This document shows positions 2,482 through 30,371 of a stretch of 40,757 nucleotides of DNA, piece after piece. Source of the stretch: Planctomycetota bacterium (GTDB taxonomy: Bacteria > Planctomycetota > Planctomycetia > Pirellulales > PLA5); NCBI GenBank assembly GCA_003576845.1, contig QEVJ01000049.1, positions 1-40,757 of the forward strand, read 5' to 3'. The stretch's first letter is position 1. The number at the start of each line of letters is the position of its first letter. A model generated the notes under the pieces. That model saw only the letters and a list, made by a program, of their open reading frames with translations, had not been told where the DNA came from and did no database searches. The translations under genes were made by a program, and so were the position numbers.

Positions 2482-2619
2482 ACCGAACCGGCGCCGTGCG
2501 CGGCGCGCGTTTTGGCGCGGCCGAGACGTCGAGTTTGCATCTGGACTGCATCCGCCGGTCTGCCGTACCATGTCTGCGGCATTCGATGCAAGTTCTTCTC
2601 GAACCCTCGGCGAAAAATC

Positions 2620-5013
2620 ATGCCCGCTCAGCCCTATCTCGATTGCCAGAGAGCCGCCGGCGGAACTTCTGGCGAGGTCCCCCGTCGCGACTTTTTGATG
2701 CAGCTTTCGATCGTCGCCGGCGGAACGGTGATCGCGGGCTGCGCCGACAATCCCGGACCGAATCCCACCGCCACGGAACTACAGAACGTTTCGTGGTCGA
2801 AGGCGCCGTGCCGATACTGCGGCACCGGTTGCGGTGTCGAGGTCGGCGTGAAGGAAGGGAAGGTCGTGGCAGTTCGCGGCGACGAACTCGCGCCCGTCAA
2901 TCGCGGCTTGCTCTGCGCGAAGGGTTATCATTTGCCCGGCATGTTGTACGGCGAAGATCGCCTGCTGTATCCACTCAGGCGCAATCCGGACGGCAAGGGC
3001 TTTTCGCGAATCAGTTGGGACGAAGCGATCGCCCTGATCGCCGAGAAGTACCGCGCCGCGCTCGACAAGCACGGACCCGAGTCGATCGCCATGTACGGCT
3101 CCGGCCAGTGGACCGTGTTCGACGGTTACGCGGCGCTCAAGTGGTTCAAGTCCGGCATGAAAAGCAACAACCTCGAAGCGAACGCCCGAGTTTGCATGGC
3201 CAGCGCGGTGGCCGGGTTCATGACGCAGTTCCAAAGCGACGAGCCGATGGGCTGCTACGACGACTTCGAAGCGGGGCACGATTTCTTTCTCTGGGGCAAC
3301 AACATGGCGGAGTGCCATCCGGTGTTGTTCAGCCGCATCTTGGAGAACCGCCGTAAGAACAAGAATGTGCAGATCCTCGATATCGCCACGCGCTGGACGC
3401 AAACCTCGGATTTCGCCGACGTGTTCGTGCAGTTCAAGCCCGGAACGGACCTCGCCCTCGCCAACGGCATTCTCCACCTGCTTGTCGCCAAAGGCCAGGT
3501 CAATTCATCGTTCGTCGACGAGCACGTGACGTTCAAACGCGGCATCGAGGACCTCGACAAGATCGGCTACGGCTGCTTCGGCGAGCAGGCGGACAAGTAC
3601 ACGTTCAAGGACGAGCCGAAGGACAGCAGCTTCGACGAACTCAAGCAATTCCTGGCCGATTACACGCCCGCGAGGGTGAGCGAGATCACCGGTGTATCGC
3701 CGGCGCAAATCGAAGTCCTGGCGGAGCTCTACGGCAATCAGCGGCGAAACTCGGTGAGCGTCTGGTGCATGGGCGTCAATCAGCACGTCCGCGGCACGTG
3801 GATGAACAATCTCATCACCGACATCCACCTGCTGACGGGCAAGATTTCCCGGCCCGGCAACAACCCGTTCAGTCTCACCGGCCAACCGTCCGCGTGCGGC
3901 ACGGTCCGCGAAGTCGGCACGCTCTGCGACCGATTGCCCGCCGATCGCACGGTGACCAAGCCCGAGCATCGCGCGGAAGCGGAGAAGCTCTGGAACGTCC
4001 CGGCGGGCACGATTCCCGAAAAGCCCGGCTATCATACGGTCGATATGTTCCGCGCCCTGGCTCGCGGCGACGTGAAGGTCATCTGGATTCAAACCACGAA
4101 TCCCTGGGTCAGCCTGCCGAATCTTACCCGCTTCGAGCGCAAGCCCAACGACGGGCGGTTTATTATCGTGAGCGACATCTATCCGACGCCGACTACGGCC
4201 GCAGCCGATTTGATTCTGCCTTCCGCGGCCTGGGTCGAGCGGGAAGGCGTGTTTGGCAACACGGAACGCCGCACGCAACAGTGGAACAAGCTCGTCGACC
4301 CGCCCGGCGAAGCGAAGGAGGATGCCTGGCAGATCGTCCAGGTCGCCAAGAAAATGGGCTACGATAAGCTGTTCCCGTGGAAGGACGAGGACTGGCACAA
4401 GCCGATGTTCGAGGAGTACCGCTCGTTTACGGTCGGCATCGGCAAGGACGTGGCGAGCTACGAACAGCTCAAAGCCGAGCGGGGGATGCGTTGGCCGGTG
4501 GTCAACGGCCGCGAAACGCGATATCGCTATGCCGCGCCCTACGATCCTTACGTCAAAAAGCCCGAGGGCGTCCACTTCTACAAGGCCAAGGGGTACGGCG
4601 AGCGGGCGGCGTTCTGGCTGCGGCCGTATCATCCGCCGGCCGAGTCGCCGGACGCGGATTATCCGCTATGGCTTACCACCGGCCGCGTGCTCGAACATTG
4701 GCATACCGGCTCGATGACGCGCCGCGTGAAGCAACTGCATCAGGCCGTGCCTGCCGCGTATGTCGAGATCGAGCGGACCGACGCCGAATCGCTCGGTATT
4801 TCTTCCGGCGACAAAGTGCGGGTGAAAAGCCGCCGCGGCGAAGTGGTTTTGCCGGCGGTCGTGGACGGCCGCGGTCGTCCGCCGAAAGGAACCGCGTTCA
4901 TCCCCTTCTACGACGAATCGAAGCTCGTCAATCTGCTGACGCTCGATGCGATGGACTCGATCAGCAAGGAACCGGACTACAAAAAATGCGCCGTGCGCAT
5001 CGAGAAGGTGTAG
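2620..5013 (+). CDS. napA: Molybdopterin nitrate reductase catalytic subunit, NapA-like, Tat-exported
   Basis: Catalytic subunit of a periplasmic-type nitrate reductase (nitrate to nitrite) carrying Mo-bis-MGD and one 4Fe-4S cluster. From ATG 2620 the protein has 797 residues, close to the family size (about 830). A twin-arginine signal is visible (PRRDFLMQL then a hydrophobic stretch ending VIAGC), so Tat export, possibly as a lipoprotein, is likely; a longer upstream frame to 2512 would bury this signal and is not preferred. Cluster ligands are C64, C67, C71 and C99 with the NapA spacing. The probable Mo ligand is C192 in ARVCMASA, followed by EPMGCYDD as in NapA. The C-terminal MGD-binding part has the expected LTTGRVLEHWHTGSMTRR. 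The cytochrome gene starts 2 nt after the stop. No napD-like chaperone or napC-like quinol dehydrogenase is adjacent. Confidence 0.92.
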   Translation: MPAQPYLDCQRAAGGTSGEVPRRDFLMQLSIVAGGTVIAGCADNPGPNPTATELQNVSWSKAPCRYCGTGCGVEVGVKEGKVVAVRGDELAPVNRGLLCAKGYHLPGMLYGEDRLLYPLRRNPDGKGFSRISWDEAIALIAEKYRAALDKHGPESIAMYGSGQWTVFDGYAALKWFKSGMKSNNLEANARVCMASAVAGFMTQFQSDEPMGCYDDFEAGHDFFLWGNNMAECHPVLFSRILENRRKNKNVQILDIATRWTQTSDFADVFVQFKPGTDLALANGILHLLVAKGQVNSSFVDEHVTFKRGIEDLDKIGYGCFGEQADKYTFKDEPKDSSFDELKQFLADYTPARVSEITGVSPAQIEVLAELYGNQRRNSVSVWCMGVNQHVRGTWMNNLITDIHLLTGKISRPGNNPFSLTGQPSACGTVREVGTLCDRLPADRTVTKPEHRAEAEKLWNVPAGTIPEKPGYHTVDMFRALARGDVKVIWIQTTNPWVSLPNLTRFERKPNDGRFIIVSDIYPTPTTAAADLILPSAAWVEREGVFGNTERRTQQWNKLVDPPGEAKEDAWQIVQVAKKMGYDKLFPWKDEDWHKPMFEEYRSFTVGIGKDVASYEQLKAERGMRWPVVNGRETRYRYAAPYDPYVKKPEGVHFYKAKGYGERAAFWLRPYHPPAESPDADYPLWLTTGRVLEHWHTGSMTRRVKQLHQAVPAAYVEIERTDAESLGISSGDKVRVKSRRGEVVLPAVVDGRGRPPKGTAFIPFYDESKLVNLLTLDAMDSISKEPDYKKCAVRIEKV

Positions 5014-26302: not shown

Positions 26303-28108
26303 TTAGTCGCTTGCGGGCGCAGACTCGCGGTGGGGGCGACGGGCCCGATAACCTTCGAGCCGGGCGGCGATTTCGCGTTCGCGGGCCGCGTCCGATTGGC
26401 TTTTCGCGACGGCGAGGGCCGCTTCGGCCATTTTGACCGCGTCCGGGAATCGCCCTACCTCCGCGTATGCGGCCGCGAGCGCATCGAGAACCGCCAGGTC
26501 GCGCCGCCCCGGGCCGTTCGCGAGCGGCTCGACCAGTTCCAACGCCTCGCGGCCGTTGCGGAGCGCGTCTTCCGGGCTGGTCGACAGGAGCCACGCGAGA
26601 CCCGCCCGCGCCGCGACATGGTCGGCATGGTATTCGAGGGCCCGGCGATAGGCGGCCGCGGCGTCCTGCGGCTTCCGCTCGAATTCCGCAATCCGGCCAG
26701 TCATCTGGTGCATGTCGGCCACGCGGAGGTTGCGATTCACGTCCTCCCGCGAGCGGCCCGGGCTCGGCGGGGCGGATTCCTGACTCAAATACTTGTCGAT
26801 ATACGCCCGGGCGTCGGCGGGATAGCCGCCTTCCAAGTGGGCAGACGCGACCGCGATCGGGTGCGACTCGAACAGGTCACGGGCCCAGCGGCCGGCAAAC
26901 GGGACCGCCCGCTGACGATAGGTCGCCGGATCGGCGGCCATGTCGAGGACGTCGGTGAGCAGAACCCGCGGCTCGACGGGACCGAAGTAGATCATCGTTC
27001 CGCGGCCGGCGGGGTCGATGAGCAGGCTTAGCGGCAACGGCAACGTCCGCTGGCGGTAGACCACGCGCCGCTGGAACTTGTCGACCGCGGCCAGCAAGGC
27101 GTTGTTTGCGCGACCGGCATAGAACGGGTATTTGAGGTTCGCGAGCACCGACCGAAGCGCATCGGCCGTCGGCGGATCGGACTGGTTCAGCCCATCGACG
27201 TTCAGGGCGACGATCCGCACCTTGAGCCGATCGAGGGCCGCCTTCTCCGTGCCGAACTCCCGAAGCTCCTTCAGACACGGCGCACACGACGTGGACCAGA
27301 AGTTGAGGAGCACCGGCACGCCGACGAGGTCCGCCGAGCGAATCGTCTGGCCCGCGAGATCGACATACTCGTACTCGTCCATCGGCAACGGTTCGAGCAG
27401 CTTGACGCGAGCGACGGACGATTGCGGCGGCGACTGCGGGGGCGAGGGCCGCAGCGCGACGTTTCGCGATACGGCGTTCGCTTCGGCTCGGCCCGTTCCT
27501 TGAACGAGGCGATAGCGGCCGTTCGGCTCAAGTCCGGCAAACGTCTCGACGCCCGGCTCGCCGCCCGTGGGCCAGCGAACGGTGACGCGCTCGATCTTGA
27601 TCGCGTTCGTTGTCGTTGCGTCGCCGAGTCCGAAGTGCAACCGCCGGGACGACTGGCTCAGATAGCCGTCGCCCGCCACGACCGATTGGACGAGCTTTCG
27701 CGGAGCCTGGCCGCCAAGCTCGACCTCGACCCACGCGCCCACCGCGTCGCGATTCGTGCCGCGCTCGGGATCGCCGACGAGTTCGAGCGTCAGATGGGCG
27801 TTGCCCGAGGAAATGTCGTTGCGCAGGAAGCGGACGCGGGGACTCGTGCGGTTGGCCACCCATAGGTCGAGGTCGCCGTCGTGGTCCCAGTCGGCGACCG
27901 CCACGCTGCGGGCGTCGTCGTCGAAGTCGAGACCCGTCGCGGCGGATACGTCGGCGAACCGCGGGCCGCGGGTGTTCAGAAAGCAGCAATTCCGCTCGCG
28001 GCCGCTGAACGAACGGCCTTCCTGGATCATCTGCGCAAGCTGCGTCCAGGCCGAGAGATAGGTTTCGCTCGGCGTGAGCTGGCCGGTGCCGGTGGGTGTT
28101 TGCGACAC
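26303..28108 (-). CDS. C-terminal part of a CRTAC1-type protein: last FG-GAP motif, ASPIC/UnbV, thioredoxin-like and TPR domains
   Basis: 601 codons open from GTG 28108. The first 100 residues finish an FG-GAP propeller (DWDHDGDLDLWVANR near 73-87 is a calcium-loop motif). ASPIC/UnbV domain about 110-205 (NAHLTLELVGD..., VVAGDGYLSQSSRRLHFGLG, RVTVRWPTG). Thioredoxin/TlpA-like domain about 235-400 with redox motif C275-A-P-C278 in NFWSTSCAPCLKEL. TPR-like helices from about 490 (AAAYRRALEYHADHVAARAGLAWLL, ALELVEPLANG). Standing alone this would be odd: no signal peptide, no ribosome-binding site in place before GTG 28108, and a propeller fragment at its start. It lies in the same frame as the gene at 28130-30205, separated only by a UGA and seven sense codons, so I read it as the second half of one protein of about 1300 residues. 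Confidence 0.8.
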   Translation of the reverse strand: MSQTPTGTGQLTPSETYLSAWTQLAQMIQEGRSFSGRERNCCFLNTRGPRFADVSAATGLDFDDDARSVAVADWDHDGDLDLWVANRTSPRVRFLRNDISSGNAHLTLELVGDPERGTNRDAVGAWVEVELGGQAPRKLVQSVVAGDGYLSQSSRRLHFGLGDATTTNAIKIERVTVRWPTGGEPGVETFAGLEPNGRYRLVQGTGRAEANAVSRNVALRPSPPQSPPQSSVARVKLLEPLPMDEYEYVDLAGQTIRSADLVGVPVLLNFWSTSCAPCLKELREFGTEKAALDRLKVRIVALNVDGLNQSDPPTADALRSVLANLKYPFYAGRANNALLAAVDKFQRRVVYRQRTLPLPLSLLIDPAGRGTMIYFGPVEPRVLLTDVLDMAADPATYRQRAVPFAGRWARDLFESHPIAVASAHLEGGYPADARAYIDKYLSQESAPPSPGRSREDVNRNLRVADMHQMTGRIAEFERKPQDAAAAYRRALEYHADHVAARAGLAWLLSTSPEDALRNGREALELVEPLANGPGRRDLAVLDALAAAYAEVGRFPDAVKMAEAALAVAKSQSDAAREREIAARLEGYRARRPHRESAPASD

Positions 28109-28132
28109 GACCTGTCGCCAATAGAAACTTCA
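28100..28132 (-). other. In-frame UGA followed by a bacterial SECIS-like hairpin (candidate selenocysteine site)
   Basis: On the minus strand the codons read GAT TTG TGA AGT TTC TAT TGG CGA, translating as GDL-UGA-SFYWRQVVSQ. Seventeen nucleotides after the UGA begins the loop of a perfect 6-bp stem: GCGACA (28118-28113), loop GGUCG, UGUCGC (28107-28102), extended by UU/AA across one bulged G. In E. coli fdhF the GGUC of the SelB-binding loop also begins 18 nt after the UGA and its loop is AGGUCU, so position and loop agree closely. The bulged base in fdhF is U; here it would be G. Insertion of selenocysteine is inferred, not shown. Selenocysteine machinery (selA, selB, selC, selD) is not in this window. 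Confidence 0.6.
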
Positions 28133-30205
28133 CAAATCGCCCGTGTCTTCTTGCGTGATGAAGCCGTTGGCGACGTAGATGTCCTCCCAGCCGTCGTTGT
28201 TGAGATCGACGAACTTGGAACCCCAGGCCCAGCGGCCGAGCGTGACCGCGGCATCGAGGCTTACGTCCTGGAACTTGCCATTGCCGAGATTGCGATAGAG
28301 CGAATTGCCGCGGGCGTGGTGACGAAGTTGTTCGAGCGTTTTGGCGTCCGCGCCGGCGAGGAATTGGGCCTGTTTCGTGACGCGGTTGCCCGCGGACGAG
28401 AACATGTTGGCGACGTAGAGGTCGAGGTCGCCGTCGTTGTCGTAATCGCCCCAGCAGGCGGACATGCCGGGACCGATGTCGTCGACGCCCGCTTCGCCGG
28501 CGACGTCGCGAAAGCGGCCGGCGTCGTTGCGATACAAGTTGTCGCGGCCGAAGTCGTTGGCGACGAACAGGTCGTCATCGCCGTCGTTGTCGTAATCGCC
28601 CCAGGCGGCGGCGTAGCTGAAGCGTCGGTTGTTCTCGTCGAGGCCGACTTCCTTGGTGACCTGCTTGAACCGAAAGCCCTGCCCGAACCGCGGATCGACG
28701 CGCGGGCCGTCGTTGCGGAGCAGCACGTTGCGGCCGCCGTTGTTCGCGTCGTGATACGGCACTGGGCGGGCGAAGAGAATGTGCCGCTCGACGCCCGGCC
28801 GCGGGTTGTAACCGCAGACGAACAAGTCGAGGTCGCCGTCGCGGTCGTAGTCGCTCGCCGCGAGCGAATAGGCAAACGACGCGGGCATCAGGGCGGTGCC
28901 GGCCGGGGTGAACCGCCCGCGACCGTCGTTCGCAAAGAACGCCACGCCCTCCCACACGGCGACGGCGAGGTCTTGATCGCCGTCGTTATCGAAATCGGAG
29001 AAGAGCGCGGCGTGCGTCGCGTCGATGAGATCGACTCCCGCCGTCGCGGACACGTCGGTCGCCGTGCCGTCGGCGTTTTGCACGTAGAGCCGGTTGGGCA
29101 ACCCGCCGGGCTGGCACACGTAGATGTCTTCCAGGGCATCGCCGTTTACGTCCGCGACGGCGATCCCCTGCCAACCGCCGACGTCGATGCCGAGCCGCTC
29201 GTCGAGATTGCCCGTCCAGTGGTCGGTGCCCAGGAGGAGTTGCGAGGCGAACGACGCGTTCGCCCCGAGGACGGCGGTCGTGCAGTCGGCGAACATGCCG
29301 CCTATGTCCGCCGTGGCGACAATGTTCTCGAAGTCGCTCGCGGCAATCGACGCCAGCAGCGGCAGTGCCTTGTCCGCAGTGCGTCGCCACGTGCAGCGGC
29401 ATTGGGCGTTCCACTGCACGCTGCCGGTCGCGGTGGGTCCGCCGATTTGCATCACCATCGTCGTCGTGGCGGTGTCGCCGGCGATGTCGACGCTCACCGT
29501 CTTGAACTTGGCGTGAATGTGCGGCTCGTCGCCGAGCGAGGCAATCAGATCGTTGAGCGCGGCGGCGAGTCCCACGATTCCGCGATGCTTGACCGCCTGG
29601 TCGCCGGCGGCGCGGCCGACTTGGAACGTCGCGTCGCGAAAGGTTTCTTCAAGCTGGCGGGCCGAGAGGTCCGTCGCGGTTACGTCGGCTGTGGCAAGCG
29701 ATTCGAACGCGGCGGCTTCGACGGGTTTCGCGGCGGAGATGAAGGCCGCGAGTTTTTTGAGTTGCTTGTCGGCGGCGTCGTTGAAAACCTCGGCGTCCCA
29801 GCCGTCGCGTTCGGCCGGCGTTTCCAGCGTGCGGCGCGTCGCGGCCGGCAACGCATCGGGCGACGTGGGGCGAACGAGCTCTTGCGGGGGCTGTGGCGAT
29901 TGCGACGGAGACGCACTGGCGTCCGGCAACGACTCGCGGGGAGAGTCGCCAACGTTGTTCGACGTCGACGGCGGCTGCTCGATGGCCGACTTGCCGCCTT
30001 CGGCGCTCGCGGTAAGTGCCGGCGGACGTTTGCCGTCGTCGTTGGACCCGCGTTCCCGATCGCCCAAAAAACGGTCGAACGCGACGTAGCAGGCAATCGC
30101 GACGGCGAATGCCAACAAGACGAGCCACCCGCGCCGTCGCGAGCCGGGCGAATCGGGCCGTTGCGCGGCTGGCGTCTTGGGAATGAATTGCGAGTTGGCA
30201 GCCAC
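28130..30205 (-). CDS. N-terminal part of a CRTAC1-type FG-GAP repeat protein, ending at a UGA that may be recoded
   Basis: 691 codons from GTG 30205 (AAGGG 8 nt upstream; GTG at 30271 is possible). A single membrane helix at about 26-47 (GWLVLLAFAVAIACYVAF) anchors it, followed by a Ser/Pro-rich linker and an alpha/beta region to about residue 320. Six FG-GAP calcium loops follow in order: DVNGDALEDI, DFDNDGDQDL, DYDRDGDLDL, DYDNDGDDDL, DYDNDGDLDL, DLNNDGWEDI. The open frame ends ANGFITQEDTGDL-UGA. CRTAC1-type propellers continue past this point with an FFWRQVV-like segment and a further blade, and exactly that (SFYWRQVV and a seventh calcium loop) follows the UGA in the same frame. Likely an exported, membrane-anchored protein of unknown substrate; this family is abundant in planctomycetes. 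Confidence 0.85.
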   Translation of the reverse strand: MAANSQFIPKTPAAQRPDSPGSRRRGWLVLLAFAVAIACYVAFDRFLGDRERGSNDDGKRPPALTASAEGGKSAIEQPPSTSNNVGDSPRESLPDASASPSQSPQPPQELVRPTSPDALPAATRRTLETPAERDGWDAEVFNDAADKQLKKLAAFISAAKPVEAAAFESLATADVTATDLSARQLEETFRDATFQVGRAAGDQAVKHRGIVGLAAALNDLIASLGDEPHIHAKFKTVSVDIAGDTATTTMVMQIGGPTATGSVQWNAQCRCTWRRTADKALPLLASIAASDFENIVATADIGGMFADCTTAVLGANASFASQLLLGTDHWTGNLDERLGIDVGGWQGIAVADVNGDALEDIYVCQPGGLPNRLYVQNADGTATDVSATAGVDLIDATHAALFSDFDNDGDQDLAVAVWEGVAFFANDGRGRFTPAGTALMPASFAYSLAASDYDRDGDLDLFVCGYNPRPGVERHILFARPVPYHDANNGGRNVLLRNDGPRVDPRFGQGFRFKQVTKEVGLDENNRRFSYAAAWGDYDNDGDDDLFVANDFGRDNLYRNDAGRFRDVAGEAGVDDIGPGMSACWGDYDNDGDLDLYVANMFSSAGNRVTKQAQFLAGADAKTLEQLRHHARGNSLYRNLGNGKFQDVSLDAAVTLGRWAWGSKFVDLNNDGWEDIYVANGFITQEDTGDL

Positions 30206-30371
30206 GCGGCCGACCCTTGCTGCACGCAAAGAAATGGCGAACCAAAAAAACGCGAATTCGATTCTAGACACGGCGATTGACCGTCGCCAGTCCGCGGGTC
30301 GCGCGACTTGAACGCAAATGTCGGGTGAGCCTCACTTCGTTCGGCCGACCCTATCCATTACGCCCCAACCG

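Follow-up and report, generated by a model that had tools for sequence, protein, structure and literature searches.

A long gene on the minus strand of a 40,757-nucleotide (nt) stretch of planctomycete DNA (hereafter the window; it lies on contig C272 of a genome that is 7.0 Mb in size and 99% complete) appears to be broken by an in-frame UGA codon. Comparative sequence analysis strongly supports the view that it is an intact gene for a large, probably membrane-anchored selenoprotein of the type of cartilage acidic protein 1 (CRTAC1), and the UGA of the family to which it belongs is almost certainly read as selenocysteine (Sec). The complete explanation, in which SelB, tRNA-Sec and a downstream hairpin would decode the UGA as Sec in a protein that joins a CRTAC1 propeller to a thioredoxin domain and has a redox role, is in our judgment very probable.

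The minus-strand open reading frames (ORFs) at 28130–30271 and 26303–28108 lie in one register; the upstream ORF terminates in the UGA at 28130–28132, and seven sense codons (SFYWRQV) separate this codon from the GTG at 28108. A preliminary description of this DNA had given the same arrangement, and the ORF coordinates bear it out. Counted from 30271, the read-through product of the gene (26303–30271) has 1322 residues, with the UGA at position 714. Its Pfam domains begin with FG-GAP repeats on both sides of the UGA, followed by an ASPIC/UnbV domain, an AhpC-TSA/TlpA-like domain with a CAPC motif and finally tetratricopeptide repeats (TPRs). The thioredoxin-like domain matches PF00578 and the TlpA/ResA profiles, with scores below the curated equivalog cut-offs. 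All of 34 members from several phyla have the FG-GAP and ASPIC domains, and 29 of these 34 have an AhpC-TSA match. The hydrophobic segment at residues 49–65, the only one found at the N-terminus, suggests that the protein is anchored and that its remainder is extracytoplasmic. These domains agree with the earlier proposal of a membrane-anchored CRTAC1-type protein that carries a CxxC thioredoxin domain.

The UGA occupies one aligned residue in 105 relatives from the Planctomycetota, Verrucomicrobiota, Acidobacteriota and Gemmatimonadota. Many of the genomes concerned are metagenome-assembled, and the members are phylogenetically related, so percentages within the family do not represent independent events. 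Among 39 genomes of the same order, the strong homologues (E < 1e-180, 39–74% identity) comprise about 35 loci in eight genomes, each with one internal TGA (two in one fragment) and none with a TAA or TAG. The UGA aligns to residue 714 in all 36 of the close order-level sequences examined (consensus DL-U-SxFWRQVVSQSP), and the frame and the motif are conserved on both of its sides, close members reading D-L-U-S-x-[FY]-W-R-Q-V-V. The source genome itself has a second UGA-bearing copy, on contig C10, and one planctomycete genome contains ten copies, every one with the UGA. A phylum-wide search with a profile of 33 members (A1) detected relatives in at least 89 of 392 sampled genomes, almost always with one TGA; among the listed matches below E = 1e-130 the internal stops are TGA only, never TAA or TAG. 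Relatives also occur in named assemblies from the Verrucomicrobiota (Akkermansiaceae, Roseibacillus), the Acidobacteriota, the Gemmatimonadota and further Planctomycetota. When all collected loci are considered, 83 of the 94 close members (score > 500) and 14 of the 26 with scores of 300–500 have U at the site, counts in which non-Sec copies are over-represented by the deliberate collection of loci without an internal stop. The alignment of homologues that had been proposed as a check thus reveals, in many genomes and several phyla, a shared UGA position and a conserved hairpin.

This hairpin, a putative selenocysteine insertion sequence (SECIS), has a stem that starts 11 nt past the UGA. The preliminary description had placed a stem GCGACA/UGUCGC with a loop GGUCG 17 nt after the codon, and precisely this structure is found at 28102–28118. 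The bacterial SECIS model specifies a stem of 4–16 bp, a loop of 3–9 nt with a G within its first two positions, a spacing of 16–37 nt and a minimum free energy of at most -7.5 kcal/mol (PMC13188914); with 6 bp, 5 nt, a loop starting with GG, 17 nt and -9.3 kcal/mol, the window hairpin falls within every one of these limits. It had been feared that the hairpin might not be conserved in UGA-bearing relatives, but at a fixed offset all six pairs form in 78 of 83 close UGA members and five of six in the other five, compared with full pairing in 0 of 25 paralogues without the UGA. If codons are drawn synonymously from each gene's own usage, 2.98 +/- 1.68 members with six pairs are expected, against the 78 observed. 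Compensatory changes have produced the stems GCGCCA/UGGCGC, GCGGCA/UGCCGC, GCGACG/CGUCGC and GAGGCG/CGCCUC, and of 498 cells 493 are paired, a number that falls to 478 or fewer when the 3' arms are shuffled. In distant UGA groups a hairpin of other sequence lies at nearly the same place. A search of Rfam gave nothing relevant at the UGA site. By these comparisons, the hairpin is conserved beyond the constraint imposed by the protein.

The source genome contains the sel genes that it had been suggested should be sought: selA (513 bits), selB (365 bits) and selD (362 bits), together with a tRNA-Sec with a UCA anticodon. Its selD carries an in-frame TGA of its own (G000:C145:10145-11071), which serves as an internal control, and SelD is therefore probably a selenoprotein. 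A second tRNA-Sec-like match (L010) was rejected as a tRNA-Cys. Within the order, UGA-bearing relatives are present in 10 of the 19 genomes that have SelB and in none of the 20 that lack it (p = 1.5e-4), so that SelB accompanies the family in 10 of 10 genomes. The association extends to the phylum sample (SelB in 82 of 89 family genomes, p = 5e-14) and to the named genomes of several phyla (26 of 28, among which those of L132 and L147 are known only with a non-Sec copy). The proposal that the UGA encodes Sec is accordingly well supported by the conserved codon and hairpin, by the co-occurrence with SelB and by the sel machinery.

The position of Sec in the protein can be described from an AlphaFold2 model of the core, in which Cys was substituted for Sec (predicted local distance difference test 90.2, predicted TM score 0.93). 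In this model the residue begins a helix (349–360 in core numbering) located between propeller strands, and the closest solved structure to the 571-residue core is that of murine CRTAC1 (9etn; Z 37.3, root-mean-square deviation 2.4, 440 residues, TM about 0.7). The only well-conserved Cys/Sec columns in the family are Sec itself and the two CxxC cysteines, C1016 and C1019 (A2 numbering). Among members with at least 400 residues downstream of the site, all 90 that carry the UGA have the CxxC, against 3 of 20 non-Sec paralogues, the latter being those with non-Cys residues (p = 3e-17). On the tree, Sec has changed state about 7–9 times, and the CxxC has changed in the same direction in all 4–5 informative independent pairs. 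A U-x-C arrangement is restricted to 4 of the 105 UGA members (L100, L101, L145 and L254; PDGUTC, PDGUSC and PDGURC), and in this PDGUxC group the true stop comes 201–220 residues past Sec, before any thioredoxin domain. Since Sec and the CxxC are conserved and lost jointly, and UxC occurs in the short type, we infer that Sec is the catalytic nucleophile and that it is reduced by the CxxC or by the neighboring Cys.

What has been established computationally, namely a recoding site with its hairpin, the genes for decoding, the arrangement of domains and the joint conservation of Sec and CxxC, can be joined in a mechanism to which redox catalysis, an extracytoplasmic location and an electron flow from the thioredoxin domain to Sec are added by inference. 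SelB and tRNA-Sec would decode the UGA at 28130–28132 as Sec, directed by the downstream hairpin, to give the 1322-residue product, probably membrane-anchored and extracytoplasmic, in which the TlpA-like thioredoxin domain and the TPRs follow the propeller/ASPIC scaffold. That scaffold, with its CRTAC1 calcium loops, would hold Sec714 at the N-terminal end of a helix that is set between blades. The Sec selenolate would act as the catalytic nucleophile and become oxidized as it reacts with a small molecule or a partner protein, after which the appended thioredoxin domain would use its CxxC to reduce the Sec again; in the short PDGUxC type the neighboring Cys would take over this reduction. The protein would then probably work outside the cytoplasm as a Sec oxidoreductase that depends on its own thioredoxin domain for recharging.

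The close paralogues that lack Sec have Glu, Ala, Gln, Asn, Arg, Asp, His or Ser in its place, but never Cys. The preliminary description had considered that varied residues other than Cys would argue against Sec, and such variation is in part what these paralogues display; they have nonetheless lost the hairpin and usually the CxxC as well, and therefore look like derived proteins in which the Sec function has been dropped. A search of the 392 genomes for a DNA pattern with Cys in the motif gave zero matches, and 64 collected loci match the same pattern with UGA in place of Cys. Cys at the Sec site is confined to a remote CRTAC1 subfamily (L048, L049, L050 (source genome), L158 and L186), whose motif is NGHxSGxSxxDYC[TV]xFW and in which the thioredoxin domain is mostly absent. 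In one member from the Acidobacteriales (L132) the site is occupied by Ser (TCC) and the hairpin is absent, though SelB is encoded in the genome.

Several observations weigh against the interpretation that we have given. The absence of Cys from the close non-Sec paralogues is unusual for a selenoprotein and weakens any simple thiol/selenol argument. Clear SelB is missing from 7 of the 89 family genomes of the phylum (several of them incomplete assemblies) and from 2 of the 28 named genomes. Folding of the RNA, which had been advocated as a test, yielded a hairpin within the bacterial SECIS limits but no signal of stability, the window sequence by itself being no more stable than its composition predicts (z = -0.03); the significance of the hairpin thus derives from the comparison across members and not from the energy of a single sequence. 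Only a small number of independent events on the tree underlie the co-loss of Sec and CxxC (p about 0.06 in a sign test), there are three short members (L098, L247 and L255) with neither a thioredoxin domain nor UxC, and the gene neighborhoods in several phyla contain no shared operon that would point to a substrate.

Alternative explanations of the interrupted gene must account for the same data. One in-frame stop in one assembly could well be a sequencing error or the mark of a pseudogene; the comparison refutes this, as about 100 relatives from many independent assemblies have the identical UGA with intact frames and conserved motifs, and the idea can for practical purposes be set aside. 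It could also be supposed that translation ends at the UGA and begins anew at GTG 28108, to give a separate propeller protein and a separate thioredoxin protein, and an in-frame GTG does exist 21 nt downstream. The codons between UGA and GTG are, however, conserved as protein (SxFWRQVV) in close members and form part of the modelled helix, and where a paralogue has Glu, Ala or Gln in the position of Sec, its coding sequence is one uninterrupted frame. Nor is 28108 preceded by any Shine-Dalgarno-like stretch, as had already been remarked of the downstream frame, and we regard the two-gene arrangement as highly improbable. Hardly more credible is a programmed readthrough or a general reassignment of UGA with insertion of an ordinary residue (Trp, Arg or Gln). 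The tolerance of ordinary residues (Glu, Ala, Gln, Asn, Arg, Ser) at the site in close non-Sec paralogues would accord with it, but UGA is the normal stop of other genes in the window, which excludes a general reassignment, and neither the exclusive use of TGA among the internal stops of the listed matches, nor the fact that the family's presence tracks SelB, nor a hairpin that fits the SECIS model and is lost in paralogues without UGA would be expected from it.

Rather different is the suggestion that the protein is a selenoprotein whose Sec does not exchange electrons with the thioredoxin domain; Sec would bind a metal or another ligand, and the TlpA domain would have some other purpose. The conserved acidic residues that line the calcium loops are compatible with such a role. 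As Sec and the CxxC are the only conserved Cys/Sec positions and vanish together, and the group without thioredoxin has a Cys two residues past Sec, we think this suggestion rather unlikely, if deserving of serious consideration, and retain the redox partnership of Sec and CxxC.

With CRTAC1 (murine 9etn) and the bacterial FG-GAP-ASPIC proteins the window protein shares its fold and its FG-GAP and ASPIC domains; the Sec helix and its motif are peculiar to its own branch, and CRTAC1 has, to our knowledge, neither a thioredoxin nor a TPR domain. A TlpA-like domain and a predicted redox Sec are also found in the UGC-containing TlpA disulfide reductase selenoprotein and in other thioredoxin-fold selenoproteins (PMC13188914), but in those the Sec is inside the thioredoxin fold, whereas here that fold has the CxxC and Sec is in the CRTAC1 propeller about 280 residues upstream. 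SelB/SECIS-dependent selenoproteins such as Escherichia coli FdhF have the same kind of short hairpin after the UGA, with G at the start of the loop and a spacing of 16–37 nt; the window gene differs from them as a new protein family with a new hairpin sequence. Glycine reductase selenoprotein A is similar in having no Cys homologues (PMC12013277), just as the window family is without a close Cys orthologue; no relation between the two was seen, and the window family does have a remote Cys subfamily and paralogues with neither Cys nor Sec. The authors of PMC12013277 noted that their method may fail for selenoproteins without Cys homologues, for which glycine reductase selenoprotein A was the sole earlier case named. 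Because close Cys homologues were not found here, searches based on Cys/Sec pairs could likewise miss this family.

The earlier statement that no selenoprotein of CRTAC1 type had been described is upheld by Table 1 of an inventory from 2026 (PMC13188914), which covers 119 families and subfamilies of prokaryotic selenoproteins and contains no FG-GAP, CRTAC1 or ASPIC protein. Our literature search produced no paper linking a selenoprotein with the CRTAC1 family, and the papers that name both FG-GAP and selenoprotein were unrelated as judged by title and abstract. Planctomycete selenoproteins have been reported (PMC4807772); a CRTAC1-type family does not figure in the passages of that work that were consulted, and an earlier mention in its supplement is possible. 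We file the CRTAC1-type selenoprotein as a new family, a case of ordinary recoding in a new protein with an uncommon evolution.

The features of the gene are collected in the table. Elsewhere in the window, a molybdopterin oxidoreductase with a 4Fe4S domain is encoded at 2512–5013 on the plus strand, with a TTG start. In two Roseibacillus (L123, L130) a DUF1592/PSCyt1 (cytochrome-type PSD) and DUF1552 gene pair is immediately upstream of the Sec CRTAC1 gene, other neighborhoods being varied. A further redox fusion that uses the CRTAC1 scaffold is found in an Akkermansiaceae metagenome-assembled genome, where a gene adjoining the Sec CRTAC1 gene (L121:1617-4115, minus strand) combines FG-GAP and ASPIC with a SCO1/SenC domain in one protein. 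CRTAC1/FG-GAP genes have also been described next to hydrazine synthase homologues outside the anammox group (PMC12758564).

Table 1. Position and basis of each feature of the interrupted gene within the window
Feature	Position	Strand	Basis
CRTAC1-type selenoprotein gene, complete	26303..30271	-	ORF list and full-length homology to family members
N-terminal hydrophobic segment WLVLLAFAVAIACYVAF (residues 49-65), probable membrane anchor	30077..30127	-	Comparable segment in 62/91 members
CRTAC1 core: FG-GAP beta-propeller with calcium-loop motifs, Sec helix and ASPIC domain	27476..29176	-	Profile, predicted structure, murine CRTAC1 9etn_A Z 37.3
Conserved motif D-L-U-S-F-Y-W-R-Q-V-V-S-Q, Sec at helix N-terminus	28100..28138	-	Alignment and predicted structure
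UGA codon, very probably read as Sec (residue 714)	28130..28132	-	Position shared by 105 relatives
SECIS hairpin GCGACA-GGUCG-UGUCGC, loop 17 nt after UGA, -9.3 kcal/mol	28102..28118	-	Folding and conservation, compensatory changes, codon null
ASPIC/UnbV domain	27512..27745	-	PF07593, 2.3e-16
AhpC-TSA/TlpA-like thioredoxin domain	27113..27370	-	PF00578 and TlpA/ResA profile matches
CAPC (CxxC) active-site motif of thioredoxin domain	27275..27286	-	Sequence and alignment
TPR repeats, C-terminus	26402..26572	-	Pfam

We lean, with some reserve, toward the view that these genes represent a large class of selenoenzymes that has gone unnoticed. Its members would work outside the cytoplasm and have a CRTAC1 propeller provided with an in-chain thioredoxin reductant; sulfur would never replace selenium in them, and the loss of Sec would take with it the whole redox function, CxxC and SECIS included; the lack of close Cys orthologues would explain why searches for Cys/Sec pairs missed the family. 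Its loss pattern exposes a blind spot of searches that depend on Cys homologues, and standard annotation would split each such gene into two false proteins or a truncation. The joint loss of Sec, hairpin and CxxC, with a replacement other than Cys, is a rare experiment of nature on the capacities that selenium has and sulfur lacks, and bacterial CRTAC1-like proteins gain a plausible chemistry. The family is widespread, on a scaffold not known to carry Sec and in phyla whose selenoproteomes have been little studied. Since at least 89 of the 392 sampled genomes contain relatives, UGA copies being present in almost all of the 89, and one genome has as many as ten copies, the family may be a main use of selenium in the phylum.

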